A stretch of 64,000 bases of DNA. It comes from Treponema sp. GTDB lineage: Bacteria; Spirochaetota; Spirochaetia; Treponematales; Treponemataceae. The translations under genes and the position numbers were made by a program. The notes under the pieces were generated by a model. It ran no database searches, was not told the origin of the DNA, and saw nothing but the letters and a program-made list of their open reading frames with translations. The stretch lies in the NCBI GenBank assembly GCA_016288205.1, contig JAEEYO010000025.1, forward strand, positions 62,001 through 126,000. Reading direction: 5' to 3'. Numbering within the stretch: position 1 is the first letter of the stretch; each line of letters starts with the position of its first letter. Shown here piece after piece: positions 1-64,000 of this stretch.

Positions 1-1884
1 GATCCTTCCGTAGCCGAGGGAAACAGATCGTATTCACCGGAGGAGCTGGCGGAGCAGCAGAAAGAAGCTGAGAATAAAAATCAAGATTCTGAAGTCTCTG
101 CAAGCGAAGAGGTGGATTCCGGGGAAGCTCAGGAAGATCAGACGGAAAATATTTCAGAAGAAAATGTAAACCAAGTTTCAGATGGCAACATCGAGGATCA
201 AACAGAAGCGGGAGAAAATATGGAAGAAAATTTTGTCGATAAAGAAGTTCCTGAAGAAAATCAGGATGAAGAGCTTTTCGTAGATGCGGCAGAAGGCGGA
301 GTCAACAACGAAGTGCTGGAGGATGATGACGTTGTTCCTTCACCCTTCTATTCCCCGCTGGTCGAAAACGAAGGTGAAAAGCAGATTGATTTTTCATCGG
401 AAGAGACAACCGAAGAAGAGGAAGACGGAGACGCAGGATTCATTGTTGATGCCGACTCAATCGTTCAGGCCGACATGAATGACTTCGCATACGACGAAGA
501 CTCTGGTATGTCCGTAAAATCTGACAGTGCCGATTCAGAAAGTGATTTGGAATCAACCCAAAATAACGCCATTCCAGATGCTGGAGAGGAAGATATGGAT
601 ATAAATACCAACACAAGCAGCGAATCACCGGATACAGCCGCGCTGATGAATGAGATCGCAAAAGAACTTTCTGTTCTGCGTCAGGAAATCAACGAGTTGA
701 AAAACGAATTCGCCGAGTTTAAGCGGAACGGTGTTGTCGCACCTTCCACAGAAAGTGCCCCCGCAGAAAAAGAAGAAAACGGATTCTTCGGAGACATGGA
801 TGATGACGATACAATCGCGCTTAGTGGTGACGAACTGAGCAATATCCTGAGCACGGCAGATTTTACGGAAGAAGCCGCTGATGGTGAGACCGCAGTTGAG
901 ACAGCCACAGAAAGCGAATCTGATGCCGCAAGCGAGGAAACGGTTTCTGAATCAGAGGATGGCTCTGATGAAAACTCAAGCAGAAGCATTTTCGGTTCTG
1001 TTGAGGACACCCCCGCTATTCCGGATCAGGTCAACTCATACGAGAACAATCTTCAGGTAGATTTCGCGGATGAAAATCTCCAGGAACCTGATCTGAATGA
1101 TGTGAATATTGATGTGAGCGACTCCATTAATGACGAGGAAGCAAGCGAAAGCGACGAAGCAAGTGATCTCCCCGGAGAGATTGATGTACCCAAAGCCGAC
1201 GATGACATCCTTGTGGAATCCTCAAGCTCAGATTTCATTGAAAGTGAAGAATCCGAGCCGGAAACAAGCGATTTTGAGGCACCCGCAGCCGACACAATCT
1301 CTGAGTCACAATCTTTCGACGAGCCCCAGATTGAAGAGGATGCAGGCACATCTGAATCATTTGTTTCTGAAAACGACGACATGAACGTTGAGGAAGACAA
1401 CAGCATTTCCCAGGACGAGGCCGACTATCTTTCAAAGGATGCACCTGTAGCCGAGGAAGATGAGAAGCTTGAGACCGGAATCTCCGAGGAACCTGTAAAC
1501 GAAGTCTTCAACAAATGGGAAAACTCAAATCCTGAAGATGAGACTCTTGAGGAACCGGCTGTTGAGGAAGACAACTTTGAAGCTCCCGCCCCCGCCGTTG
1601 AGGATAAAGTTGATGATGATGAGTTCAAGGAGCCCGTTTTTGCCGAAGCAGAGCCCGAAAGCGAACCTGAAGCCACTGTAAACATTGAGCCAGAGGAAGA
1701 AAATCCTGCCTCCGCAGCCGGCGTAAACGCGATTCCCGAAGATATGAAGGAAGAAATCAAGTCTGTCCTTGCTTACATGGACCAGCTGCTTGAAAGCCTT
1801 CCCGAAAACAAGATTGAGGAATTTGCAAAGTCAGAGCAGTTCAACACTTACAAAAAGCTTTTCAACGAGCTGGGACTCTCTTGA
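1..1884 (+). CDS. Highly acidic low-complexity protein, 5' end outside window
   Basis: The reading frame is open from base 1, so the gene is truncated at its 5' end; 627 residues are visible. No family is recognised. The chain is very rich in Glu, Asp and Ser and looks intrinsically disordered. It is interrupted by one predicted coiled-coil stretch (around ALMNEIAKELSVLRQEINEL, encoded near 640-720). A short ordered C-terminal helical segment (about the last 50 residues, AIPEDMKEEIKSVLAYMDQL onwards) looks like the only folded domain. A hairpin terminator follows at 1951. The next genes are two DUF115/Maf-like proteins, so a role in the same surface or flagellar process is possible but inferred only from position. 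A GTG at 112 could be an internal start, but coding character continues upstream of it. Confidence 0.75.
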   Translation, partial: DPSVAEGNRSYSPEELAEQQKEAENKNQDSEVSASEEVDSGEAQEDQTENISEENVNQVSDGNIEDQTEAGENMEENFVDKEVPEENQDEELFVDAAEGGVNNEVLEDDDVVPSPFYSPLVENEGEKQIDFSSEETTEEEEDGDAGFIVDADSIVQADMNDFAYDEDSGMSVKSDSADSESDLESTQNNAIPDAGEEDMDINTNTSSESPDTAALMNEIAKELSVLRQEINELKNEFAEFKRNGVVAPSTESAPAEKEENGFFGDMDDDDTIALSGDELSNILSTADFTEEAADGETAVETATESESDAASEETVSESEDGSDENSSRSIFGSVEDTPAIPDQVNSYENNLQVDFADENLQEPDLNDVNIDVSDSINDEEASESDEASDLPGEIDVPKADDDILVESSSSDFIESEESEPETSDFEAPAADTISESQSFDEPQIEEDAGTSESFVSENDDMNVEEDNSISQDEADYLSKDAPVAEEDEKLETGISEEPVNEVFNKWENSNPEDETLEEPAVEEDNFEAPAPAVEDKVDDDEFKEPVFAEAEPESEPEATVNIEPEEENPASAAGVNAIPEDMKEEIKSVLAYMDQLLESLPENKIEEFAKSEQFNTYKKLFNELGLS

Positions 1885-1903
1885 TTTTGTAAAATAAAAG
1901 GAT

Positions 1904-1932
1904 TCTAAAGGCTCACAAAATGGGTTTTTAGA
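1904..1932. repeat. Possible degenerate copy of the short palindromic intergenic repeat
   Basis: TCTAAA (1904-1909) and TTTAGA (1927-1932) form a short hairpin with GGCTC between them. This recalls the better-preserved copies near 33681, 48296, 55119 and 60807, but similarity is weak and the assignment is tentative. Confidence 0.25.
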
Positions 1933-1950
1933 GATTACGCAATCTGCAAG

Positions 1951-1983
1951 GGCCGTATCCATTTTTGGGTACGGTCTTTTTTT
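1951..1983 (+). terminator. Rho-independent terminator of the acidic-protein gene
   Basis: A 10-bp stem (GGCCGTATCC with GGGTACGGTC, two G-U pairs) closes a five-base loop ATTTT-type turn and is followed by seven T residues. It lies between the acidic gene and the first DUF115 gene, which excludes a start for the latter upstream of 2022. Confidence 0.85.
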
Positions 1984-2021
1984 GTCCACATAATGCCGAT
2001 AATTTCTTCAGGGGACAAAAT

Positions 2022-3497
2022 ATGGAAGGGATAATAATTGAAAAAAATAAAAACGGAGATTTGACGGCGACGGTCTCAGGCATAAGACTCTGCTCCGCAT
2101 ACAGTCCGCAGAAAGAAGCCGAGAGATTCGTTGAAAATCTGAAATGCTCCTTTGAGCCTTCCACCGTGGTCATAACAGGTCCCTGTCTGGATTACGCCGC
2201 AGCCCCCTTAAAAAAGCGATTCGGAAAAATCAAGCTGATTGCTGTCCATTATGCACCTGAGCTTGCTGGACAAAGCGTATGGGACAAGGAGTTTTTATCC
2301 GAAAGAGACTCCAATCTTGCCGAAGAGCTTTACTCCTATCTTGGTGAGGAAGAAATCTGTTCGACGCTTTTCTGCTCATGGCCGCCGTCCGAAAAAATCT
2401 TCGCGGAGGAATATCGCCACGCATGGAGCGAAATCAAGACGGCCGTGGTCAAAAGCCGCAATGTTCTTGCCACCATGACATACTTCGCAAAAAGATGGAC
2501 AAAAAACGCGCTCAATTTCTGCCTCTTTTCACGGAAAAACGCGTACATCCAAAAAGGCACGTCTGCGGTTCTCATCTGTGCAAGCGGAAGAAGCCTTGAA
2601 ACATCCATACCGTTCATAAAAAAATACCGGAAGAGATTTTTCCTGATTGCGCTCTCATCCGCCCTGAGTCCACTCCACAGCGAGGAAATTATCCCCGACC
2701 TGATTCTTTCAACCGACGGCGGTTACTGGGCAAAAAAACACATCTCGTTCTCTCTCTGCAACGATTACGATGTCCCTCTCGCTCTTCCTGCTGAAGCCGC
2801 ATGTTTTAAGAAATTCTACGACCGCACCATAATCCCGCTTTCCTACGGCGACGGATGCAGTGAGGCCCTAATCAAGGAATGTGGGTACACAAACATGCAC
2901 GCATACAGAAACGGCACGGTCAGCGGTACGGCGGCACTTTTTGCAATGGACATCACCGAGGGACCCGTATTTTTCTGCGGACTGGACCTTGCTCCTTCCA
3001 AGGGATTTGCGCACACACAGCCGAACGAGCTAGAAAATGAAAACTCCCTCGGCGATTTTAGGCTCAGGACAAGGGAAACAAGGATCGTACCTTCCACATT
3101 CCAGTCTCCGGCACTTTCCACTTACCTCGCATGGTTCCAGAATCAGGATTTCCACGGCAGGGTCCACCGACTTTCCGACCATTTTCCGTTCAGCAACACG
3201 CTTGGCTCCGTGGATGATGTGGACTGGAGCTATTTTGAAAACAACGCGGGCACAGGAAGAAAACCAAATTTCGTCTATAAAAACAATGATTTCAAAATCG
3301 AAGAGAGAAAAAATCAGCTCGCCTCAATAGTTTACGCACACATCAAGGATCCTGAGTGGATAAAAAACGCGCTTCCCGCAGAATATGTCGTCATGCGAAG
3401 AAAGGGAAATGAGAGCGACGGCAGCCTGGACGAAAAGATGAAAGATTTTTGTGATGAAATCCTCAGGATAAGCCTCAGAGCAATGGAGGAAAAATGA
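2022..3497 (+). CDS. DUF115 / Maf-type protein (first of a tandem pair)
   Basis: 491 residues from ATG 2022, preceded by AGGGGAC. An apparent earlier start at 1965 lies inside the terminator hairpin and was discarded. The central part carries the DUF115 (MAF_flag10, MptE-like) pattern: a nucleotide-binding-like loop VLICASGRSLE at about residues 183-193 and IPDLILSTDGGYW at about 224-236. Proteins of this superfamily include motility accessory factors implicated in putting nonulosonic-acid sugars on flagellins. Treponeme FlaB flagellins are known to be glycosylated, so this is a candidate transferase, by inference. The stop codon overlaps the next start (ATGA), indicating translational coupling to the second, divergent copy. 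Confidence 0.75.
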   Translation: MEGIIIEKNKNGDLTATVSGIRLCSAYSPQKEAERFVENLKCSFEPSTVVITGPCLDYAAAPLKKRFGKIKLIAVHYAPELAGQSVWDKEFLSERDSNLAEELYSYLGEEEICSTLFCSWPPSEKIFAEEYRHAWSEIKTAVVKSRNVLATMTYFAKRWTKNALNFCLFSRKNAYIQKGTSAVLICASGRSLETSIPFIKKYRKRFFLIALSSALSPLHSEEIIPDLILSTDGGYWAKKHISFSLCNDYDVPLALPAEAACFKKFYDRTIIPLSYGDGCSEALIKECGYTNMHAYRNGTVSGTAALFAMDITEGPVFFCGLDLAPSKGFAHTQPNELENENSLGDFRLRTRETRIVPSTFQSPALSTYLAWFQNQDFHGRVHRLSDHFPFSNTLGSVDDVDWSYFENNAGTGRKPNFVYKNNDFKIEERKNQLASIVYAHIKDPEWIKNALPAEYVVMRRKGNESDGSLDEKMKDFCDEILRISLRAMEEK

Positions 3498-5035
3498 TTT
3501 ACTCAAGTGTGATCAAAGCGAAAAACGGTTCCGAAGTGCCTCTTTTTGCCGACGGAAGCCCCATGCACTCAAAATACAATCCCGAAAATGAGGCGGCATC
3601 ATTCGCAAAGGATGCAAACGGTGGATTCATCGTAGTCTGCGGCATAGGCGGCGGATTCCACATTGAGTCGCTCTTAAATCGTCTGGACCAGAACTCCGCG
3701 ATTCTTGCCCTTGAAGCAGATTTCGAATCCCTGGAATTTTGCCGGAATCTTGATAAGGTAAAAAAAATCAGCTCCGATCCAAGACTAAGCTTTTGTACCT
3801 TTGAAAATCTTTCGGAAAATCTCGCCTCAACATATCTTCCTGCGGTTTACGGAAACTTTTCTTTTTACGTTTACCGCTCGTGGGAAGCACACAACAAGGA
3901 AATTTTTGAGCAAATCAGGAATGTGGTTGAAGAGAGCCTGAAAAGCATATCTGCGGATTTTTCCGTGCAGTCGCATTTCGGGAATATCTGGCAGAGAAAC
4001 ATACTCACGAACCTGCGTGGTTTTGAGGGAAATCCCCCGCTTCAAGTTGATTGCGAAAAAACGGCGGCAATAATCGCGGCAGGTCCCTCGCTAGACAAAA
4101 GCATCCTTGAGCTAAAGGAAAAACGCGGCGAATACACCATTTTTGCAACGGACACAGCCTATGGACCTCTCGTGACGAATCAGATCACCCCGGATTTTGT
4201 TGTCACCATTGACGCACAGCAGGTCTCCCTCGGTCACTTCATGGACCTGGAAAAAAGCGAGTCCACTACTTTTGTGTTCGACATAGCATCATCCCCATCA
4301 GCGGTGGCGGCGGTACGGTCGAAGGGGCTTCCAATCTATTTTCTAAGGAGCAGCCATCCCCTGTGCGCGGATCCGTCTTTGGAATCCTGTATGCCATTGG
4401 TTGAAAGCGGCTCTGGAACCGTAACCATTGCGGCATCTGATTTTGCACGTCAGGCAGGATATAAAAAGCTCAGGTTTTTCGGAGCGGATTTTGCATACAG
4501 CAGCGGAAAGTCCTACACGGCAGGGACATATCTTGAGAAAAACTTCGGCATAGCGGCAGGAAGGCTCAACACGGCGGAGACCCTTTATGACGCTCTCATG
4601 TTCCGTGCCCCATTAAAAAAAGCCCCGGCAGAATCACTCTACTCAGGCAGGCTGGAAAATCCCTTTACGAGCGATGTTCTTGAGTCCTACGGCACAAGTC
4701 TTGCATCCTGGGCTGAAAAATACGGCTATAAAGTGGAAAAATCTGTCTTTGAGTGCAAAATCAATGAAAAAAATCCAATTTTTTTGCAATTCAGGGGATT
4801 TAACTACAAAAAATATGCCGAAAATCTAATAAAGCAGTTGTCAGAAATTGCAACCATCAGGGAGGATTCCGCAGCTCGGGATGTGGTATGCAAAAGCAGT
4901 GGCACTATAAAAATGCTTCCTTATGTGGCATTTTTGCGAAAAAGACAGGATTTTGGGGATAAAGTCTGTTTTTTTCAGCTCCTGAAACTTGCATACCAGC
5001 GGGCAAGTCGGTATACTATAGGGTATGAAAACTAA
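3494..5035 (+). CDS. DUF115 / Maf-type protein (second of a tandem pair)
   Basis: 513 residues. ATG 3494 overlaps the previous stop by four bases and has GGAGG at 3486-3490. The N-terminal part has VVCGIGGGFHIESLL (about 47-61) followed by ALEADFESLEF, which looks like a Rossmann-type glycine loop and acidic turn. The DUF115 core follows with IIAAGPSLDKS (about 193-203), then ATDTAYGPLV and TPDFVVTIDAQQ (about 218-243). It is a distant paralogue of the preceding gene, and the two are probably co-expressed. The likely role is modification of a surface or flagellar protein, inferred from the family and not shown here. Its 3' end contains a promoter-like sequence for the next gene (4989-5017). 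Confidence 0.78.
   Translation: MIYSSVIKAKNGSEVPLFADGSPMHSKYNPENEAASFAKDANGGFIVVCGIGGGFHIESLLNRLDQNSAILALEADFESLEFCRNLDKVKKISSDPRLSFCTFENLSENLASTYLPAVYGNFSFYVYRSWEAHNKEIFEQIRNVVEESLKSISADFSVQSHFGNIWQRNILTNLRGFEGNPPLQVDCEKTAAIIAAGPSLDKSILELKEKRGEYTIFATDTAYGPLVTNQITPDFVVTIDAQQVSLGHFMDLEKSESTTFVFDIASSPSAVAAVRSKGLPIYFLRSSHPLCADPSLESCMPLVESGSGTVTIAASDFARQAGYKKLRFFGADFAYSSGKSYTAGTYLEKNFGIAAGRLNTAETLYDALMFRAPLKKAPAESLYSGRLENPFTSDVLESYGTSLASWAEKYGYKVEKSVFECKINEKNPIFLQFRGFNYKKYAENLIKQLSEIATIREDSAARDVVCKSSGTIKMLPYVAFLRKRQDFGDKVCFFQLLKLAYQRASRYTIGYEN
4989..5017 (+). promoter_or_regulatory. Sigma-70-type promoter inside the DUF115 gene end
   Basis: TTGCAT (4989-4994), a 17-base spacer and TATACT (5012-5017). 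The predicted transcription start falls about seven bases downstream, next to the ATG at 5025, so the transcript would be nearly leaderless. Confidence 0.55.
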
Positions 5036-6692
5036 AAGGAACATTTTATTCACAACGCTCATTCTAATCATATATATAATCACTGTTCTGGTCTATGCCA
5101 TCTCACTCTTCACGGAGTACAGAACCGGACCGGAAAGGACAGATTTCAGAATCAGTGAGCTGGTCAGGGAAACAAGGCAGAACGCACAGACCAACATGCC
5201 GGGAAGCGATTCATTCAACAGCACTCTCATCCGCTCCATGGGCAACGTCGCGGATTTGGCAGGACTTCAAGTACTCAAGGACGGCAAGCTGATTTTTTCT
5301 TATCCCAAGGATTTAAGCGAAAGCAATGCGGGACGCTCATCTTTCGTAAGGGTTAAAAGCGAAAAATTCAAAGGAAAGGACAGTTCCGAGCTTACAATGA
5401 CAGCGGCGGTCTACATGGTCACTCCGGATTCCTTTGCGAAAAAGGGAATCATAGCATTTTCCGTCATTCTCCTTACGACCGTAGCAGCAATAATTCATCT
5501 TGTAATGCTCTACCGCTCGGACAATCAGAGCCAGGCACAAAGCGAGAGCGATAATTATCAGATGGATGACGATGCAAAAGCGGTCAAAAACTCTGAGAAG
5601 AAGAAAAATAAATCCACGAACTTCACGATTGGTTCCGCATTCACGGATGAGAGAAAGTCCGATGACTTGAAAGAGCCTGATGAAAAGGAATTTACCGCAG
5701 ACCCAGTTGAGCCCTCAAGCGACGATGAAGGGCCCATTGATGACGTGACAGTATACGAAGAGCCTCCTCTTGACAGCGATGAGACAGTCGCAGATGAGAT
5801 TGCGGACGAGCAAAATCAGGCAGACGAAAGCGCAGATGATTCCTATGAGGATGATTCATACGAGCTGCCGGTCATTGGCTCAAATTTGACGCAGGAAGAG
5901 TACCAGGCACTCACCAAGGACTTGATTGACGAGCCGAGCATAGAAACTGAGCCAAACTTTGAAGAAATCAACGATGAGCCGCCCCAGCCCCAGTACTCGC
6001 TACCGGCAGAAAACACACCGGCAAGGATTTTTACCGACGGCCTGAGCCAGAGAAAGCCTGAAAAAGTTACTCCTCCGACGAACTACCTCAAACCGCTTCC
6101 GTCCCTGCCCGAGAAAAAAGAGGAAGAGCCCCTTCTCAAACCCGTAGCAGGAACTCGCCCCATGCCGGAAGGCCTTTTCTCTCCCGAAACAGGTTTTGGA
6201 TGGGAAGAATACATGATGCCGCGCCTTGACTCTGAGCTGATGAAATCCGCGTCGAGCGACCAGGACATTTCGCTTTTCATGCTCAACATTCCGAAGTTTG
6301 ACTGGACAAGCGACGCAGGTCAGGAAATCATCAGCATTATTGAAAAGACATTCCAGTTCAAGGATTTGATTTTTGAGTACGGTGAGTCGGGATGCTCCGC
6401 AATCATGCAGAACATGAACATCCGTGAAGCTCTGAAAACAGCAGAGAACCTGCACACCGACATTATCTCAACTTTGGCGAAAAGAAGCATTTACCGCATT
6501 GTGAACATAGGCATCTCCAGCCGCTCGCTCCGTCTCATTTCGGGAAAGCGTCTTGCGAATGAAGCGGAACAGGCACTCCTCCATGCCATGAACGAAAAGA
6601 ACACGCCTATTGTTGCATTCAAGGTAAATCCTGAGAAATACAGAAAGTACATTTCAAGGGAAGTCGCCAAGCTTGAGGAAAACAACGCATGA
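5025..6692 (+). CDS. Membrane protein with degenerate GGDEF-like domain
   Basis: 555 residues, overlapping the previous gene by 11 bases. Two membrane segments (about 7-28 and 145-165) bracket a periplasmic stretch of about 115 residues. They are followed by an acidic disordered linker (about 190-370) and a C-terminal domain (about 395-545). That domain resembles a diguanylate cyclase fold: DISLFMLNIPKF, then FEYGESGCSAIM where (R)YGGDEF would sit (YGESG at 452-456), then IVNIGISSRS and a terminal helix ANEAEQALLHAMNEKNT. The GGDEF signature is lost, so cyclase activity is unlikely; it may bind a nucleotide or act as a scaffold. The function is unproven. Its position beside Maf-like genes hints at cell-envelope or motility regulation. 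Confidence 0.65.
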   Translation: MKTKRNILFTTLILIIYIITVLVYAISLFTEYRTGPERTDFRISELVRETRQNAQTNMPGSDSFNSTLIRSMGNVADLAGLQVLKDGKLIFSYPKDLSESNAGRSSFVRVKSEKFKGKDSSELTMTAAVYMVTPDSFAKKGIIAFSVILLTTVAAIIHLVMLYRSDNQSQAQSESDNYQMDDDAKAVKNSEKKKNKSTNFTIGSAFTDERKSDDLKEPDEKEFTADPVEPSSDDEGPIDDVTVYEEPPLDSDETVADEIADEQNQADESADDSYEDDSYELPVIGSNLTQEEYQALTKDLIDEPSIETEPNFEEINDEPPQPQYSLPAENTPARIFTDGLSQRKPEKVTPPTNYLKPLPSLPEKKEEEPLLKPVAGTRPMPEGLFSPETGFGWEEYMMPRLDSELMKSASSDQDISLFMLNIPKFDWTSDAGQEIISIIEKTFQFKDLIFEYGESGCSAIMQNMNIREALKTAENLHTDIISTLAKRSIYRIVNIGISSRSLRLISGKRLANEAEQALLHAMNEKNTPIVAFKVNPEKYRKYISREVAKLEENNA

Positions 6693-6702
6693 TTTTGAGA
6701 TG

Positions 6703-6730
6703 GGTCTTAATTCTTGAGACCCTCTTTCAT
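6703..6730 (+). terminator. Putative terminator between convergent genes
   Basis: GGGTCT (6703-6708) pairs with AGACCC (6718-6723), followed by TCTTTCATTTT. It overlaps the last codons of the opposing TPR lipoprotein gene and would end the plus-strand operon. Confidence 0.45.
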
Positions 6731-7276
6731 TTTAGTCTCAATTTCTGAAATGGATTTTTCATCGGGGAAGCTTTCTTTGAACAGATGGAATTTCTCTTCG
6801 GCAATCTCGTATTTACCGTCCGCCATCAGAACCAGAATGTAGTTTTTCATTATGGACGCATCCGTGGGATTCGCCTCCGAAAGCTGCTTGTATTCTTCCA
6901 GGGCCGTCTTAAAATCACCGCTCATTGCATCCAAGTATGCAATTGAAAGCTTTATGTTCGTGTTGTCGGGATCTTCCTCAAGAAGCGAGCAATACATCTT
7001 ACGTGCGTTTTCCCAATCCTGAGCAAGAGCATAGCACCTCGCAATTTTGTATGAAAGCGCATTTCCCGAACCACCCGCATCAAGAGACATCTGATAGTAC
7101 TTTACCGCACTCTCATAATTCTTGAGCTTTTCGTGAGCCTCCGCAATCTGTGCATATTCCGCCGCAAGATTTTGCTCAACCACATGACTTTCACCCGGGA
7201 TGGAAAATCCTGTAGTCTTGCAGGAAAAAATGGAAACGCAGAGAATCAATGGAAATGCTATTTTACATACTTTCAT
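6707..7276 (-). CDS. TPR-repeat lipoprotein
   Basis: 189 residues from ATG 7276, which shares its A with the TGA of the upstream gene (TGATG). A TTG three bases upstream is a poorer start. The N-terminus is a lipoprotein signal with a lipobox-like IFSC near residue 20. The rest is tetratricopeptide repeats (YAQIAEAHEKLKNYESAVKY, SYKIARCYALAQDWENARKM, IKLSIAYLDAMSGDFKTALE, MKNYILVLMADGKYEIAEEK), about four units. It is probably a periplasmic protein-protein adaptor anchored in a membrane. It is the last gene of ileS-lipoprotein-TPR. The partner is unknown. Confidence 0.75.
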   Translation of the reverse strand: MKVCKIAFPLILCVSIFSCKTTGFSIPGESHVVEQNLAAEYAQIAEAHEKLKNYESAVKYYQMSLDAGGSGNALSYKIARCYALAQDWENARKMYCSLLEEDPDNTNIKLSIAYLDAMSGDFKTALEEYKQLSEANPTDASIMKNYILVLMADGKYEIAEEKFHLFKESFPDEKSISEIETKMKEGLKN

Positions 7277-8154
7277 CAATTTGCACCGCCGAATATGAAA
7301 TCCGCAATCTGCTCCTCAGTGAACTGCAAGTAAGGAATCTTCAGCGTATCACCTGATTTTTCCACTGGAAGTCCGGCAAGAGTCATCATGGTCAGGGCAA
7401 GATTTTTCCTGCGCTCGTCAACCGGGCTCAGATTGATTTCCATATTGTACTCACCGTCGCCGCATTTCGAAATCTTTCCGTATGCAGAGGAAAACCAGTT
7501 GGAAAAAGAGTCTCCCACAAATGATGCGAGCAGACTTCCCGGCTCCTTCAGATAAAAAAGAATGTCCTTGTCAAATTCATCGGCGGTCTCGAACCACTGC
7601 AAATGAGGACTTTCCTCCGGCATGGATTTTGAGGCGTATCGGTCAAGCATTTTGGTAACATCGCTTGAGACGAGTACAAGACTTCCGCTCGGAAAAGAAA
7701 CGGAATATGATCCGCCGTGGAAATATTTGAATTTCACGGATTTTTCCTTACCCGCAGAATCAGAAACTCGCACGGAATGGGATTTTTTTGTCCATCCCCT
7801 TTTTTCGTTCAAAGCAAGTCCCGCAAACGACGACGGAAAATTGCCCTCCGCCGCCATCTCAAGTTTTTGTCCGCCATTTGAAAAATCAAGTCCGGCATAA
7901 AGGTTCGTAATCCTTGAGACAACCATTGAGGCGTTGGACTCGGAAAGCGATGCCTTTTCCATCATGATTTTTTTCGTGAGCTCAGGATATTCCTTTACCG
8001 GAACCTTCATGTAAACCGAGTTATTTTCCCCCAGAAGATTTATCGTACTGGACTCAAATCCGACGCTTCCAGAGGAATTACATCCTGCAAGCAGAATCAT
8101 AGAAACGGCAAGCAGAATGTAAAAGAAATCCAGACTTCGTTTAGCCGGGGACAT
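7276..8154 (-). CDS. Lipoprotein of unknown function
   Basis: 292 residues from ATG 8154, four bases after the ileS stop and using GAGGG inside the ileS end as ribosome-binding site. A longer frame to 8301 overlaps ileS and was rejected. The signal peptide has a clear lipobox ILLAGC (about residue 24). The mature part is mixed alpha/beta with no recognised domain. It contains repeated phrases such as MKVPVKEYPELTKKIM and SFPSGSLVLVSSDVTKML, suggesting a soluble periplasm-facing fold. It is cotranscribed with ileS and the TPR lipoprotein. The function is unknown. Confidence 0.7.
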   Translation of the reverse strand: MSPAKRSLDFFYILLAVSMILLAGCNSSGSVGFESSTINLLGENNSVYMKVPVKEYPELTKKIMMEKASLSESNASMVVSRITNLYAGLDFSNGGQKLEMAAEGNFPSSFAGLALNEKRGWTKKSHSVRVSDSAGKEKSVKFKYFHGGSYSVSFPSGSLVLVSSDVTKMLDRYASKSMPEESPHLQWFETADEFDKDILFYLKEPGSLLASFVGDSFSNWFSSAYGKISKCGDGEYNMEINLSPVDERRKNLALTMMTLAGLPVEKSGDTLKIPYLQFTEEQIADFIFGGAN

Positions 8155-8158
8155 AAAA

Positions 8159-11100
8159 TCAGCCCTCAACTTTGGAAATCTTTGCGGTCCATGTCTTGTC
8201 ATCAGCCTCGGCAGTAAATCCGCCAGAAACGGAATCCTTCCATTCGGCTGTGGCGGCAAGCGTCTCCCCCGCGATGAAATCCCTGAACTGCACGAAAGCA
8301 TCCTTAAGCTCAGCGTCTCCGCTCACCTCAAGATTGATTCTGTCGGTAATCTCAAATCCGCTTTCCTTGCGCATATTCTGGATTCCACGGACCAAATCGC
8401 GTGCATATCCCTCGTGGCGCAAATCATCGGTAATCTTCGTCTCAAGTCCGACAGTCAGGGTTCCGTCATTGACAACCTTCATGTCTTCCTTTTCAATGCG
8501 CTCGACAATCACGTTCTCCGCCGTAAGATCCACGTCCTGTCCGTCCACGGTGATCGCAAGTGCCTGTCCGTCAAGGATCGCCGCAATCTGCTCGTTGCTG
8601 AGTTTGGCAATCTCCGCCGCAGCAAGCTTCATCTTTGGGCCAAGCTGTTTACCGAGCACACGGAAATTTGCCTTTGCGGAATACTCAACCAGCTCATCCT
8701 CCCTGTCGTGGAAAATGACCTTCTTTACGTTGAGCTCCTCGGCAATTGTGTCCTCCATTTCCTGCAGGACCTTTTTCTCATCGGCATCGCGGGTAACAAG
8801 TGCGACGGCTGAAAGAGGCTGCCTGTTCTTGATGTTGAACTGATTTCTGAGGCTTCTTCCCATGGACACAGCTTTTTGAACCGTGGTCATCTGGAACTCA
8901 AGCTCCTCGTCACGGAAGCGCTCGTTGTAAAGCGGATAGTCCATGAGATGAACAGATTCCTTGTCCTCCGCTGTTTTCAGATTCTGCCACATGGTCTCGG
9001 TAAGGAACGGAATGAAAGGAGCGGCCGTAAGCGTAAATGTCCTCAATGCAAGATAGAGAGCACCGTAAGCCTCAAGCTTGTCAGAATCAGAGCCGGATTT
9101 CCAGAAGCGACGGCGGTTTCTGCGGATGTACCAGTTGTTAATCTGGTCGATGAAACTCAGCCAGGGGTCAATCGCGGCGTTCAGGTCGTAGTCATCAAGG
9201 GCTGCGCTTACATCGCTCACCATTTTCTGTGCGACCGAAAGAATCCAGCGGTCAAGAGGATTGCTCGGAAGATGGTCATCAAACTCATGTCCGGTACAGG
9301 TAACACCGTCAATGTTCGCATATTGGATGAAGAAACTGTAGCTGTTCCAAAGCGGCAGGATAATGCTCTTGATTACATCGCGCACACCCTCGTCGGAATA
9401 GCGGAGGTCATCGGCCTTAACTACGGCGGAATGGGTCAAAAAGAGCCTCAAAGCGTCGGCACCGAATTTGTTGATTGCCTCAACCGGGTCGGTGTAATTT
9501 CTGAGGCTCTTGGACATTTTTCTACCGTCGGAAGCAAGCACGAGACCGTTTACAATGCAGTTTTCAAACGCAGGCTTGTCAAAAAGATGTGCCGCAAGAA
9601 CGGTGAGCGTATAGAACCAACCGCGCGTCTGGTCAAGTCCCTCGCTGATGAATTTCGCCGGGAAGTGGCTGTCAAAGTATTCCTTGTTCTCAAATGGATA
9701 GTGATTCTGCGCATAAGGCATGGAGCCGGATTCAAACCAGCAGTCAAAAACCTCCGGGATGCGTCTCATGGTTCCATTTTCGCAAGAGCACTTGAACGTC
9801 ACCTTGTCAACGAACTGCTTGTGCAAATCATCCAGATAGACTCCTGAGAGCTGCTTCAATTCATCGCGGCTTCCCACGCACACGGATTTTCCGCACTCAT
9901 CGCACTTCCAGATTGGAATAGGATTTCCCCAGTAGCGGTTGCGGCTGATTGCCCAGTCCCTTGCACCGGCGAGCCACTTTCCAAAGCGACCTTCCTTGAT
10001 GTGTGAGGGCTGCCACTTAATCTGGCTGTTTGCCTTGAGAAGTCTCTCGTGATAATCCGCGACCTTTACGAACCAGCTGCCGATTCCACGGTAGATGAGC
10101 GGTGAACTACATCTCCAGCAATGCGGATACTGGTGCTTAATCTGCTCGCGCTTTACAAGTTTGCCCTCTTTTTTAAGGCGGTCCATGATGTCCTTGTCAC
10201 ATTCCTTTACGAACCTGCCCTGATAGTCAGAGACCTCAGCGGTAAACTTACACTCAGCGTCAATCGGTTCCATCGCAGGGATTCCCGTTCCCTGGAAAAC
10301 CTTGGAGTCGTCCTCACCGAATGCGGGAGCAATATGTACGATTCCGGTACCGTCCTCGGTGGAAACATAATCCGCGTTGAACATACGGAAAGCACCGTCC
10401 GAACCGTCCTCCTTTACCGCAAGATTCGCAAAATACGGGAAAAGAGGCTCATATTTTGCACCGATAAAATCAGCGCCCTTTCTCTTGTAGATGATTTCGT
10501 AGTCCTTTTCATCCTTATAATATGCTCCAAGGCGGCTCTCAGCAAGGATGTAATAGTCCCCGCTCTCCTTGTCCAAAATCTTCACGTAATCAATGTCTGG
10601 TCCCATACAAAGTCCCTCGTTTGAAGGAAGGGTCCACGGCGTTGTGGTCCATGCAAGGAAATAGGTCTTACCGTTGGTCATGTCAGGATCGCTGAATGCC
10701 TCTGGAGCACGAGTGATTTTGAATCTGATGGTGATTGCGGGGTCCTGAACTTCCTTATATCCCTGTGCGAGCTCGTGGGTTGAAAGAACCGTGGAGCAGC
10801 GGGGACAGTAAGGCAGAATGTATTTTCCCTCGTAGATGAGTCCCTTATCCCAGAGAGTCTTTGCGACCCACCAAATTGATTCCATAAAATCCGGATTCAT
10901 GGTCTTGTAGTCGTGGTCAAAATCAACCCAGCGTCCCATGCGTGTGATTGTCTTACGCCATTCCGATGTATAGCGGAGAACCGACGCACGGCACTTGTCG
11001 TTGAAATTTGCAACGCCATAGGCATCAATCTCATGCTTTGAGTTAAGGCCGAGCTCTTTTTCAATCAGATTTTCGACCGGAAGACCGTGGCAGTCCCAAC

Positions 11101-54149: not shown

Positions 54150-54216
54150 AGATTGCAGATGTAGCCTTGTAATGCGGATGCAATCTTTTGCAAACAGGCA
54201 GAAAGGATTTTGCCTG
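54150..54216 (+). promoter_or_regulatory. Structured leader of the first flaB with CsrA-like site
   Basis: Two hairpins. AGATTGCA (54150-54157) pairs with TGCAATCT (54179-54186). CAGGCA (54195-54200) pairs with TGCCTG (54211-54216) around a ten-base loop GAAAGGATTT that presents GGA. A further GGA lies in the Shine-Dalgarno GGAGGA at 54239-54244. CsrA typically binds such paired GGA sites and blocks translation. Confidence 0.55.
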
Positions 54217-54251
54217 ACACAAAAAAACATAGTTCCACGGAGGAAAACACT

Positions 54252-55112
54252 ATGGTTATCAATCACAACATGAGTGCAATGTTTGCACAGCGTTCAGAAG
54301 GCCTCACAGAGGTTAACAATCAGAAGAACATGGAAAAACTCTCATCTGGCATGAAAATCAACCGTGCTGGTGACGATGCATCCGGACTGGCAGTTTCTGA
54401 GAAGATGCGTAGCCAGATTCGCGGATTGAACAAAGCTTCTGAGAACGCAAAAAATGGTATCTCATTCATCCAGACAACAGAAGGTTATCTGCAGGAGACT
54501 GAGGACATCATCCAGCGCATCCGCGAACTTGCAATTCAGTCAAGCAACGGAATCTACACCGATGAGGACCGCACAATGATCCAGGTCGAGGTTTCTTCTC
54601 TCATCGCTGAGGTTGACCGCATCGCTTCACACGCACAGTTCAACGGAATGAACATGCTCACAGGACGCTTCGCACGCCAGACAGGTGAGAACAGCGTTAC
54701 TGCTTCTATGTGGCTCCACATTGGTGCTAACATGGACCAGAGAACACAGGTTTTCATCGGTACAATGACCGCTGCAGCTCTCGGAGTACGCCAGGTTGGA
54801 ACTGAGGAAATCCTCACCCTCGCAACTCCTGAGGATGCAAACCGCGCAATCGGAACTCTGGACGAAGCAATCAAGAAGATCAACAAGCAGCGTGCAGATC
54901 TCGGTGCATACCAGAACCGCCTTGAGATGACAGTTATCGGACTCGACATCGGAGCCGAGAACCTCCAGGCATCTGAGAGCCGCATCCGCGACACTGACAT
55001 GGCCAAGGAGATGGTGGACTTCACCAAGAACCAGGTCTTGCAGCAGGCCGGAACAGCGATGATCGCTCAGGCAAACGCTCAGTCACAGACAGTTTTGTCT
55101 CTGTTGCAGTAG
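54252..55112 (+). CDS. flaB: Core flagellin FlaB (first copy)
   Basis: 286 residues from ATG 54252, with GGAGGA upstream; an in-frame start at 54210 was rejected. Subunit of the periplasmic flagellar filament core. The N-terminal D0/D1 region ([51 protein letters not shown]) and the C-terminal D0 ([20 protein letters not shown] to QTVLSLLQ) are joined by a short middle, as usual for spirochaete FlaB, without outer D2/D3 domains. The conserved stretch [20 protein letters not shown] lies in the D1 region where treponeme flagellins are reported to be glycosylated. Driven by a sigma-28-type promoter with a hairpin leader. Confidence 0.96.
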
Positions 55113-55423: not shown

Positions 55424-55503
55424 ATTCATGCCGTATGGGTCTGAAAAAATTTGTCGGTCAGGGGCGCAAAAACTGCCGGCAAGAACACGGACATACGCAG
55501 ACA

Positions 55504-55518
55504 CAGGCAAGATGCCTG
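55504..55518 (+). promoter_or_regulatory. Leader hairpin of the second flaB, shared with the first
   Basis: CAGGCA (55504-55509), loop AGA, TGCCTG (55513-55518): the same six-base stem as in the first flaB leader. GGAGGA follows 16 bases later (55535-55540), set in CATGGAGGACA, a plausible CsrA site over the ribosome-binding site. Confidence 0.5.
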
Positions 55519-55545
55519 ATGTGTAATGAATCATGGAGGACAATT

Positions 55546-56400
55546 ATGGTTATTAATCACAACATGAGCTCAATGTTTGCAAACCGCCAGCTTGGAATCA
55601 ACAACGATTCTCTTCTGGGCAACATTGAGAAGCTCAGCTCTGGAATGAAGATTAACAGAGCTGGTGATGATGCTTCTGGACTTGCAGTTTCTGAAAAGAT
55701 GCGCAGCCAGATCCGCGGACTGAACCAGGCCAACAGAAACGCCAACAATGGAATTTCTTTCATTCAGACGACTGAGGGCTACCTGCAGGAGACAACAGAC
55801 ATTCTGCAGCGCATCCGCGAGCTTTCTGTACAGTCTGCCAACGGTATCTACACAGACGAGGACCGCATGCAGATTCAGGTGGAAGTTTCACAGCTTGTAG
55901 CTGAAGTAGACCGCATCGCAAGCCATGCCCAGTTCAACGGTATGAACATGCTGACCGGCCGCTTTGCCGCAAACTCCATCTCTGGACAGATCATGCAGCT
56001 GCACATTGGTGCAAATATGGACCAGCGCATTGAAGCTTTCGTCGGAACGATGACTGCTGAGGCATTGGGACTTAAGGGCGCACAGGGACTTGAGGAGCAG
56101 ATCAGCATCTCTACACCAGAGGCTGCTAACCTTGCAATCGGCACCATCGACAACGCTCTCAAACTGGTAAACAAGCAGAGGGCAGACCTTGGAGCATACC
56201 AGAACCGCCTGGAAATCGCTTCCAGAGGTATTGCTATCGCAGCCGAGAACACACAGAGCTCAGAATCTGTCATTCGTGACACAGACATGGCAGCTCAGAT
56301 GGTCGAGTACACAAGGGATTCTATCCTTACTCAGGCCAGCACAGCTATGTTGGCACAGGCCAACAGCCAGTCTCAGAACGTATTGGCACTTCTTCAGTAG
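55546..56400 (+). CDS. flaB: Core flagellin FlaB (second copy)
   Basis: 284 residues from ATG 55546, with GGAGGA at 55535-55540; the longer upstream frame is leader. A close paralogue of the preceding Fla[40 protein letters not shown], then the conserved [20 protein letters not shown] and [20 protein letters not shown]. Differences cluster in the middle (about 165-205: [13 protein letters not shown] versus the first copy's [15 protein letters not shown]). Treponemal filaments contain several FlaB proteins in different amounts. The promoter type differs from that of the first copy, suggesting separate control. Confidence 0.96.
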
Positions 56401-59626: not shown

Positions 59627-59679
59627 CAAGCAAAGCAACTTGGCTGTGCAGTTCATATAAAAAAAGTGTGGAGAAAAAA

Positions 59680-60798
59680 ATGAACTTTGAGACTACCGGA
59701 TCGCCTATTTTGGCCAGGCAAAATCCTGCACTCTATAAATTCATAGTTCTGTCGCTCATCATAGTCGCCTTTTTTCTTTTGGTGGCATATATTGCAAAAA
59801 GAATCAGCAAGTGGATGTCATCAGATGAATATCTTGAAGCAAAAAAATCCATGCCGACCACAAAAAAGAACGTGAGCACGATCGCAAGAAAAGCCATGCT
59901 TACACCCGAGGAAACAAAGCTGCTCTGGCACATTTGCAGGACACACCAGGCACCAAACATAATCTACGCCTCGCGGGATCCCATCACACTCAAGGGACTC
60001 TTCTCCACGCACTACGAGCTGATGAAAGCAAATGCCGAAAGCGAAACACGCAAGGAAAAATTTTTCACGCTGTATTATAAAATCAGCACGATGCAGAACA
60101 ACAACAAAAAGCTCAAATCCACAAGCGGACTTAGAGAAGGTCAGGAATGTATCTTCAAGGACTCAAGAGGACAGGAGTGGACGTTCACGGTCATCAAAAA
60201 CACAAGCAGCTTCATTGAGCTTGAGATCGCTCGCTCACTTTTCATCCTGGGAAGCAGACCCGCCCCCTTGTCCAAAATCCAGATAAGCGCAAGAATCACG
60301 GCGGACGAGGTCTATTCCTTCCTGACCAGGGTAATACGCTACGAAGAAAAACCCGACGGAGCATACACCATCTCAATCAGCCCGGCAAATGTCGTGAAGC
60401 AGATACGAAAAAGACAGCACAGGCGAATCGCAACCGAAACAAGGTGCCGCATCGCAAAAATTATACCGGCAGTTAAAAAATCACCTGCGGATCCGGGATA
60501 TGTGCAGGACGGAGAGGATTTTGAGGGCGTGCTTCTGGACCTCAGTGCCGCAGGATGCTCCTTCGCAACCTTCATGGAAATTCCATCCGGAAAATATGTC
60601 AAAGCCACGTTCCAGTTCAACGGCAAGGATTTTAAAGCCCTGGGTCTTATAGCGGGCCAATCCGAGATTCTGTACAGGATGCCCTACCGCCACCACGTAA
60701 AATTCACGTCAATCAGTACCGAATCAAAGAACGCGATTCAGGAATATGCCCTGGGATTCTGCACCAATACTGATGTTTTTCCGCTCCGCGCCCGATAA
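59680..60798 (+). CDS. Membrane-anchored PilZ-domain protein (c-di-GMP effector candidate)
   Basis: 372 residues from ATG 59680, with GGAG upstream; a GTG four codons earlier is the site's own sequence and was rejected. One N-terminal membrane helix (about 18-40) is followed by a central domain like the YcgR/PilZN N-terminal region (CIFKDSRGQEWTFTVIKNT, FIELEIARSLF). The C-terminal PilZ domain has the two c-di-GMP motifs, RQHRR (245-249, RxxxR) and DLSAAG (287-292, DxSxxG). It probably modulates flagellar rotation or export in response to c-di-GMP. It is the last gene after fliD and the orphan. Confidence 0.87.
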   Translation: MNFETTGSPILARQNPALYKFIVLSLIIVAFFLLVAYIAKRISKWMSSDEYLEAKKSMPTTKKNVSTIARKAMLTPEETKLLWHICRTHQAPNIIYASRDPITLKGLFSTHYELMKANAESETRKEKFFTLYYKISTMQNNNKKLKSTSGLREGQECIFKDSRGQEWTFTVIKNTSSFIELEIARSLFILGSRPAPLSKIQISARITADEVYSFLTRVIRYEEKPDGAYTISISPANVVKQIRKRQHRRIATETRCRIAKIIPAVKKSPADPGYVQDGEDFEGVLLDLSAAGCSFATFMEIPSGKYVKATFQFNGKDFKALGLIAGQSEILYRMPYRHHVKFTSISTESKNAIQEYALGFCTNTDVFPLRAR

Positions 60799-62972: not shown

Positions 62973-64000
62973 CTAGCGGAGATAATCAAGAAGAGTACTT
63001 GAGTACATCTTGCCTGCGTTGCTGAGTGTGGCCTGGTGCACGTAATCAAGCATCTTGAGGTCGGTGATTGCCTCGCTCATGTCAATGTCACCCTCGCGGC
63101 TCACAAGCTTTGTCACATTCAGATTGTTCAGAGACTGTCTCTGGATGTTGTTCTGCGCTCTCTCGTAGTCGCTTCCGTTCTTTGCAAGACGTGTGGTAAG
63201 ATTGCTCATTCCCTGATCAATCACACCAAGGACGCGTGAACCGATTGCCTCATGGTCACCACGGTACATTGCGTCGCGAAGTGCAATCACAGAGTCGAAA
63301 AGTGATCCGCCTGAAACGCTTACGCTGTTGCCAATGTTATATGGAGGAAGCTGGCTCTTGTCCTTAATCATTCCGATTTCCTCAAGCACGTTTCCGCTCG
63401 CATCCGCAAGCCACATCTGATGTGCATCGGTTGTGCGGAGGTTAAGTCCACGGCTCAGAGGATCAATTGACGCACGGATTGCAACACCGCTGTTGTTGAT
63501 TTTAGCAGCAACAGAATAAATGTTGTCGCCCGCATTGATCTCAATGTTAACGCCGTCAACATAAATCACGCTGTCGCTTGAAGCCTGCCATGCGGAAAGA
63601 TCGCGCTGTCCCATGTACACCTGAGGCTCGGCCCAGAAAACTTTGTTTCCGGAATTCTCAACGTCGAGATAAGCGTTCTCGTCAACCTCAACTTTGTTTC
63701 CCTCAATGTTTCCGTTGTACTGTACGGTCGTAATCAGAGGCTCTGCGGCACCCTCAACATTTCCCATTGAAACTTCAAATGCCGTCACGTTGTTGCGTGT
63801 TCCTGCGAAAAGAGAATTTCCATCAGGTCCCACGGCGTTTGCGTTCTGGACAAGCTCCTTCAAAAGCTCATCGACTTCAACGGCCATGTTCTTCAAATCT
63901 TCCGGAGTATTGATTCCGTTCGCACCCTGAACAGCAAGCTCGCGGACTCTCTGCATAATCTCAAGATTCTGGTGAATGTAGCCTTCCCTCACCTGGAAAT
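62973..64000 (-). CDS. flgL: Hook-filament junction protein FlgL (HAP3), 5' end outside window
   Basis: The frame is open to the window end; about 342 C-terminal residues are visible. FQVREGYIHQNLEIMQRVRE, LAVQGANGINTPEDLKNMAV and NANAVGPDGNSLFAGTR correspond to the flagellin-like D1 region. The C-terminus SEAITDLKMLDYVHQATLSN to LLDYLR is the D0 helix. Joins the hook to the FlaB filament. It heads the visible flgL-fliW-csrA unit; flgK would be expected just outside. Confidence 0.94.
   Translation of the reverse strand, partial: FQVREGYIHQNLEIMQRVRELAVQGANGINTPEDLKNMAVEVDELLKELVQNANAVGPDGNSLFAGTRNNVTAFEVSMGNVEGAAEPLITTVQYNGNIEGNKVEVDENAYLDVENSGNKVFWAEPQVYMGQRDLSAWQASSDSVIYVDGVNIEINAGDNIYSVAAKINNSGVAIRASIDPLSRGLNLRTTDAHQMWLADASGNVLEEIGMIKDKSQLPPYNIGNSVSVSGGSLFDSVIALRDAMYRGDHEAIGSRVLGVIDQGMSNLTTRLAKNGSDYERAQNNIQRQSLNNLNVTKLVSREGDIDMSEAITDLKMLDYVHQATLSNAGKMYSSTLLDYLR

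Follow-up and report, generated by a model that had tools for sequence, protein, structure and literature searches.

A coupled pair of DUF115 genes in Treponema as candidate Maf-type glycosyltransferases of the flagellin FlaB

The locus and its genes

A stretch of 64,000 nucleotides from Treponema sp. (contig JAEEYO010000025.1, positions 62,001 to 126,000) was analysed and is called the window here. It begins with genes for an acidic protein, two Maf-type proteins of the DUF115 family (DUF115-a and DUF115-b, or a and b) and a membrane protein (Table 1). The DUF115 genes overlap by 4 bp (ATGA at 3494-3497) and DUF115-b overlaps the membrane protein gene by 11 bp (5025-5035). The preliminary description had reported these reading frames and a tight coupling of two DUF115 genes. 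Both were confirmed, and the two proteins scored 74.6 bits (DUF115-a) and 105.6 bits (DUF115-b) against PF01973, whose curated cut-off is 34.6. The start of DUF115-a is most likely the ATG at 2022, which gives 491 residues and has a Shine-Dalgarno-like GGGGA run 6 nt upstream; a TTG at 1965 was considered and is unlikely.

Table 1. Features of the locus and the presumed acceptor genes (window coordinates)
Feature	Position	Strand	Remarks
Acidic-protein ORF, C-terminal 627 aa of a 1098-aa gene	1..1884	+	Truncated at the window edge
Terminator-like hairpin between the acidic gene and DUF115-a	1948..1979	+	14 pairs and a T-run
DUF115-a, Maf-type protein, 491 aa	2022..3497	+	ATG 2022; PF01973; motif His present, loop Asp and Gln absent
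DUF115-b, Maf-type protein, 513 aa	3494..5035	+	PF01973; has Asp220, Asp240, Gln242 and Tyr341
Membrane protein, degenerate GGDEF-like C-terminal domain, 555 aa	5025..6692	+	
Terminator-like hairpin closing the DUF115-a/b/GGDEF-like unit	6702..6722	+	Convergent with a TPR lipoprotein gene
Flagellin (FlaB), presumed acceptor	54210..55112	+	PF00669 2.8e-40, PF00700
Flagellin (FlaB), presumed acceptor	55435..56400	+	PF00669 7.5e-42, PF00700

Since a strong hairpin precedes DUF115-a, the acidic gene is probably a transcription unit of its own, and DUF115-a, DUF115-b and the GGDEF-like gene probably form another, within which the two DUF115 genes would be co-transcribed. The four genes had been described as one cluster; their conserved order bears this out, but the hairpin likely leaves the acidic gene outside the unit. 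The order acidic gene, a, b, GGDEF-like gene was found repeatedly across the Spirochaetia. In 80 further loci retrieved through b, DUF115-a lay directly upstream of b in 71 of the 72 loci with room for it, and the GGDEF-like gene followed b in 77 of the 80. Because the order recurs both across the class and in these further loci, the arrangement of a, b and the GGDEF-like gene is beyond chance.

In most genomes, a protein of roughly 300 residues without a Pfam match is encoded between the acidic gene and DUF115-a (e.g. L040 6166-7053, L044 9357-10283). It is absent from the window and was not found in this genome. A search of this genome for a GAF-like gene gave no match, a result of little weight because the query had no positive control. 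On the other side of the cluster, a TPR lipoprotein and a TP0453-family lipoprotein are encoded on the minus strand (6707-8301), convergent with the cluster and adjoining ileS.

The whole acidic gene (L005 14588-17884) begins some 1.4 kb upstream of the window edge and encodes 1098 residues, 31% of them D/E. Three strongly conserved islands (YGVWVK, DETIALTGDELDNI and the C-terminal about 50 residues) are set in a long acidic linker, and the protein is probably disordered. The gene is divergent to a DivIC-family gene, with Sua5 also there. The linker, the islands and this position suggest a scaffold near division or envelope genes. The membrane protein has one hydrophobic segment at its N-terminus, another around residues 140-160 and a C-terminal domain at 395-530 with weak similarity to GGDEF diguanylate cyclases. 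Its GGDEF scores were below threshold (14.0 against 23.8 for Pfam, 22.1 against 37.4 for TIGR00254). Unlike in the cyclases, the GG(D/E)EF signature was missing in all 20 aligned homologues from the Spirochaetia, in agreement with the loss noted earlier in this protein.

In the 1.14-Mb genome G077 of the Treponema family, the cluster adjoins genes resembling troD/troR, gpm and TpN15, and SmpB, signal peptidase and HemW lie beyond the acidic gene. The T. pallidum numbers TP0454-TP0458, which had been considered for the cluster, did not fit this place; we take TP0172-TP0176 to be the likely ones.

Fold, paralogues and motif residues

AlphaFold models of DUF115-a and DUF115-b, built from class-wide alignments, had pLDDT values of 83 and 82. 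Compared with the Magnetospirillum magneticum Maf structure 5mu5 they matched over the full length (Z 20.0 with 451 aligned residues and Z 19.8 with 445), and both models show the three-part Maf layout of an N-terminal Rossmann-like, a central and a C-terminal helical domain. Both proteins share the PF01973 core with the Maf flagellin glycosyltransferases, such as Magnetospirillum 5mu5, Aeromonas Maf1, the Campylobacter maf genes and the Clostridium botulinum Maf. The PseD subfamily profile (NF050051, cut-off 670 bits) gave only 19 bits for DUF115-a and 56.9 bits for DUF115-b. A plasmid search for outside Mafs returned one weak match.

The central domain aligned with the CMP-sialyltransferases Cst-I, Cst-II, ST8SiaIII and ST6Gal1 (Z 8-10). 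With the GT42 enzymes Cst-I and Cst-II (Z 8-9) a GPSL loop is also shared, and residues 138-166 of Cst-II align with the GxDF...Y stretch of DUF115-b, whose profile matches Cst-II weakly (E about 0.01). In contrast to the GT42 enzymes, DUF115-a and DUF115-b add N- and C-terminal domains, their acceptor is presumably a protein, and the sequence identity is very low. The core fold was also found in the archaeal MptE-like 6-hydroxymethylpterin diphosphokinase 8sd5, a PF01973 namesake (Z 14-15). A pterin role is unlikely, since both DUF115 proteins differ from this enzyme by the flanking Maf domains and a flagella-linked distribution.

The pair does not stand alone. This genome holds four PF01973 genes: a and b, a third beside a penicillin-binding protein gene and a fourth close to mutS2. 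Most DUF115-bearing Spirochaetia likewise have about four copies, which fall into four clades, a, b and two solo genes (c and d); such a set of ancient paralogues distinguishes them from other Mafs. In a rapidly computed maximum-likelihood tree with 76 proteins, in which several long branches are uncertain, each clade was split off by one branch (SH-aLRT 99, 99, 97 and 99 for a, b, c and d), and the four-way split needs only three changes, the smallest possible number. By this tree, a, b, c and d are considered four ancient Maf clades of the Spirochaetia. The two paralogues proposed before exist as a pair, but they are two of four DUF115 genes in this genome, and the pair is missing from some flagellated genomes. 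In G077 the c paralogue appears as two overlapping frames (L071 5767-6645 and 6483-7856) and may be split there, while its relatives hold intact copies.

Pair formation by overlapping genes and clade-specific motif residues set a and b further apart from other Mafs. At the column of b-Tyr341, all 28 b proteins have Tyr, whereas His is found in a (26 of 27), c (10/10) and d (9/9). The column of b-Asp220 is acidic in b, c and d (Asp, once Glu) and in none of the 28 a proteins. At b-Gln242, Gln is present in b (28/28) and c (10/10), and a has mostly Gly. In 73 further DUF115-a proteins, the His was found in 72 of 72 readable cases and Gly in 72 of 72, and the Asp in none. Tyr341 was left uncounted in the 80 further b loci, as the scan pattern itself contains this residue.

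In the Magnetospirillum Maf, too, the loop Asp and Gln are missing and the His is kept, and Tyr341 of DUF115-b aligns with Tyr162 of Cst-II, in an alignment that reaches only the Tyr162 region. The signature difference between a and b is therefore not a simple loss. The catalytic-base histidine of Cst-II is His188 (PMC4202792). Tyr341 was first read as marking the loss of a catalytic His, which the alignment of b with Tyr162 makes less likely. At the signature positions, DUF115-a thus resembles the Magnetospirillum Maf and DUF115-b resembles Cst-II, a likeness that may bear on their substrates. DUF115-a could be inactive, as two residues retained by the other three clades are missing from it, though 5mu5 lacks them likewise. 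Different use of donor or acceptor by a and b is possible, as is a heteromer, and the clade-specific signatures are compatible with the earlier proposal that the paralogues act on different sites or donors.

Co-occurrence with flagellin and NeuB

The distribution was surveyed in 148 Spirochaetia genomes with the presence of flagellin as a proxy for flagella. PF01973 was found in 108 genomes, flagellin in 117 and both in 106. The 11 flagellin-positive genomes without DUF115 all belong to one family (f21) with Borrelia-sized genomes of 1.0-1.8 Mb, in which no NeuB match was obtained at all. Outside this family, DUF115 was present in 106 of 106 flagellin-positive genomes, and nearly all of them have a strong NeuB, with two incomplete genomes (G001, G098) as the clear exceptions. 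Among the 31 flagellin-negative genomes, a DUF115 match was seen only in G104 and G029, and the profiles of a-d, the four long families, matched neither locus. NeuB matches in flagellin-negative genomes were weak (E 1e-6 to 1e-14) and came mostly from frames of ~650 residues, which probably encode another enzyme; G053 and G104 were exceptions. Counted by lineage, DUF115 was present in 34 of 35 flagellated and 0 of 6 flagellin-less lineages (Fisher test, p 1.6e-6, kinship ignored); the survey holds about six lineages of the latter kind, and the co-occurrence counts likewise ignore phylogeny. The co-occurrence check proposed in the preliminary description hence came out with DUF115 tracking flagellin and genuine NeuB, and the a/b pair, whose presence in non-flagellated relatives would have spoken against a flagellar role, was not found among the 31 flagellin-negative genomes.

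Of 30 flagellated genomes inspected individually, 27 carry the pair itself. It is missing from G012 and G021, and G006 has only b, so the flagellated state does not strictly depend on the pair. In a wider phylum sample, the b profile matched 117 of 120 genomes, the three misses being from the same Borrelia-sized family; its matches outside the Spirochaetia may represent other DUF115 clades.

Flagellin-less lineages served as in-locus controls for the neighbouring genes, as some of these families keep the acidic C-terminal domain and the GGDEF-like gene. In f11, the GGDEF-like gene follows the acidic gene after 15-25 bases and the a/b pair is missing between them. In f19, the GGDEF-like gene is grouped with Sua5, a small membrane protein at the place of DivIC and a small protein with the YGxW motif, and the pair is missing. 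Genus g16 of f13 has no flagellin, strong NeuB or DUF115 and keeps the GGDEF-like gene elsewhere in the genome. Because these lineages keep the neighbours without the pair, only the DUF115 genes follow flagellin. The GGDEF-like gene, though predicted to be translationally coupled to DUF115-b, is separable from it in evolution, and on these comparisons both it and the acidic gene are regarded as separable passengers and not as required parts of an enzyme unit.

Gene placement together with flagellin or nonulosonate genes is common in other Mafs, though not strictly defining. The a/b pair differs here, as its locus is not beside flagellin or nonulosonate genes: the FlaB genes are about 50 kb away in the window and the NeuB-SAF gene of this genome is on another contig. 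Short PF01973 frames of 274-316 residues were seen near strong NeuB, at distances from under 1 to about 10 kb (G104:C8:10564, G025:C1:4603380, G100:C17:177000); that of G104 is its DUF115 match mentioned above. They are probably part of a polysaccharide context and separate from the long Maf proteins.

Proposed function and alternatives

Work on Aeromonas places both the binding of flagellin by Maf and its glycosylation in the cytoplasm, ahead of the chaperone and export steps (PMC4065374). The FlaBs of T. denticola are reported to carry a 450.2-Da glycan that is essential for filament assembly (PMC9481697), and Leptospira FlaB1 has putative glycans where core and sheath meet (PMC13144727). 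The latter paper cites Wyss 1998, whose title states that sheath proteins are not glycosylated. The literature found names no transferase for the T. denticola glycan.

We think it likely that DUF115-a and DUF115-b are coupled Maf-type glycosyltransferases which move a CMP-activated nonulosonate-type sugar onto FlaB and do not require their neighbours. The conserved NeuB would lead to the nonulosonate-type sugar, which would be CMP-activated. The two proteins, presumably co-transcribed and translationally coupled and representing two of the four ancient Maf paralogues, would modify freshly synthesised FlaB in the cytoplasm, ahead of its export, by transferring the sugar to Ser/Thr residues. That the DUF115 set glycosylates flagellin is supported by association, namely the co-presence with flagellin and nonulosonate synthesis, which is shared with known Mafs as is the full-length fold. 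We infer the enzyme activity, the donor, the acceptor and a difference between a and b in donor or site. The simplest reading would be that the whole spirochaete DUF115 set glycosylates FlaB and that the pair provides two of its members. The preliminary description had proposed FlaB modification as a possible role of the cluster; this is upheld for the pair by the flagellin/NeuB association and the Maf fold, but not for the acidic and GGDEF-like genes, which persist in flagellin-less lineages without DUF115. The survey offers up to four defined candidate transferases per genome for the FlaB glycan, marks the neighbours that can be set aside and provides a natural contrast in the flagellated family without DUF115 and NeuB, which makes the question of the FlaB transferase directly testable.

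Instead of two independent transferases, a and b might form an obligate heteromer with divided labour, in which, for example, b binds the CMP-sugar and a presents the flagellin or supplies another residue. The fixed adjacency with overlap would fit this, as would the opposite class-wide deviations, with the loop Asp and Gln in 28 of 28 b and 0 of 28 a proteins, the His in a (also in the further loci) and the Tyr in b. However, b may be complete alone, given the alignment of Tyr341 with Tyr162 of Cst-II, a may be so too, given that 5mu5 has no loop Asp and Gln either, and b occurs without a in G006. We consider the heteromer unlikely. The same low probability is given to its extension to the class, a heteromeric Maf of the Spirochaetia whose two paralogues, of ancient divergence, adjacent with few exceptions and opposite in their active-site signatures, would jointly modify FlaB. 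The Maf literature examined contained no description of a division of labour among Maf enzymes.

A role of the DUF115 proteins in cell wall synthesis or division instead of flagellin modification, with an indirect flagellar link, is very improbable. DivIC and MurG are neighbours at the a/b locus and a penicillin-binding protein gene at c, and the models resemble the division regulator SteA (Z 11-12), but this fold is general to SteA, MptE and thiamine pyrophosphokinase. Moreover, flagellin-less lineages hold Sua5, the acidic and the GGDEF-like genes at the same place without the pair, and DUF115 co-occurs with NeuB and flagellin. Slightly less probable still is a single modification machine of all four genes with an acidic scaffold and a GGDEF-like regulator, which the class-wide order and the GGDEF-like gene downstream of b would favour, but which is opposed by the persistence of both outer genes without flagellin or DUF115 in f11 and g16 of f13, by that of the GGDEF-like gene without the pair in f19 and by the hairpin that separates the acidic gene from DUF115-a.

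Two further observations concern the flagellar region of the window. A PilZ-domain protein is encoded at 59668-60798, just downstream of fliD and the flagellin genes, and a minus-strand frame at 62973-63998, cut by the window end, shows a partial match to the flagellin N-terminus (E 3e-7).
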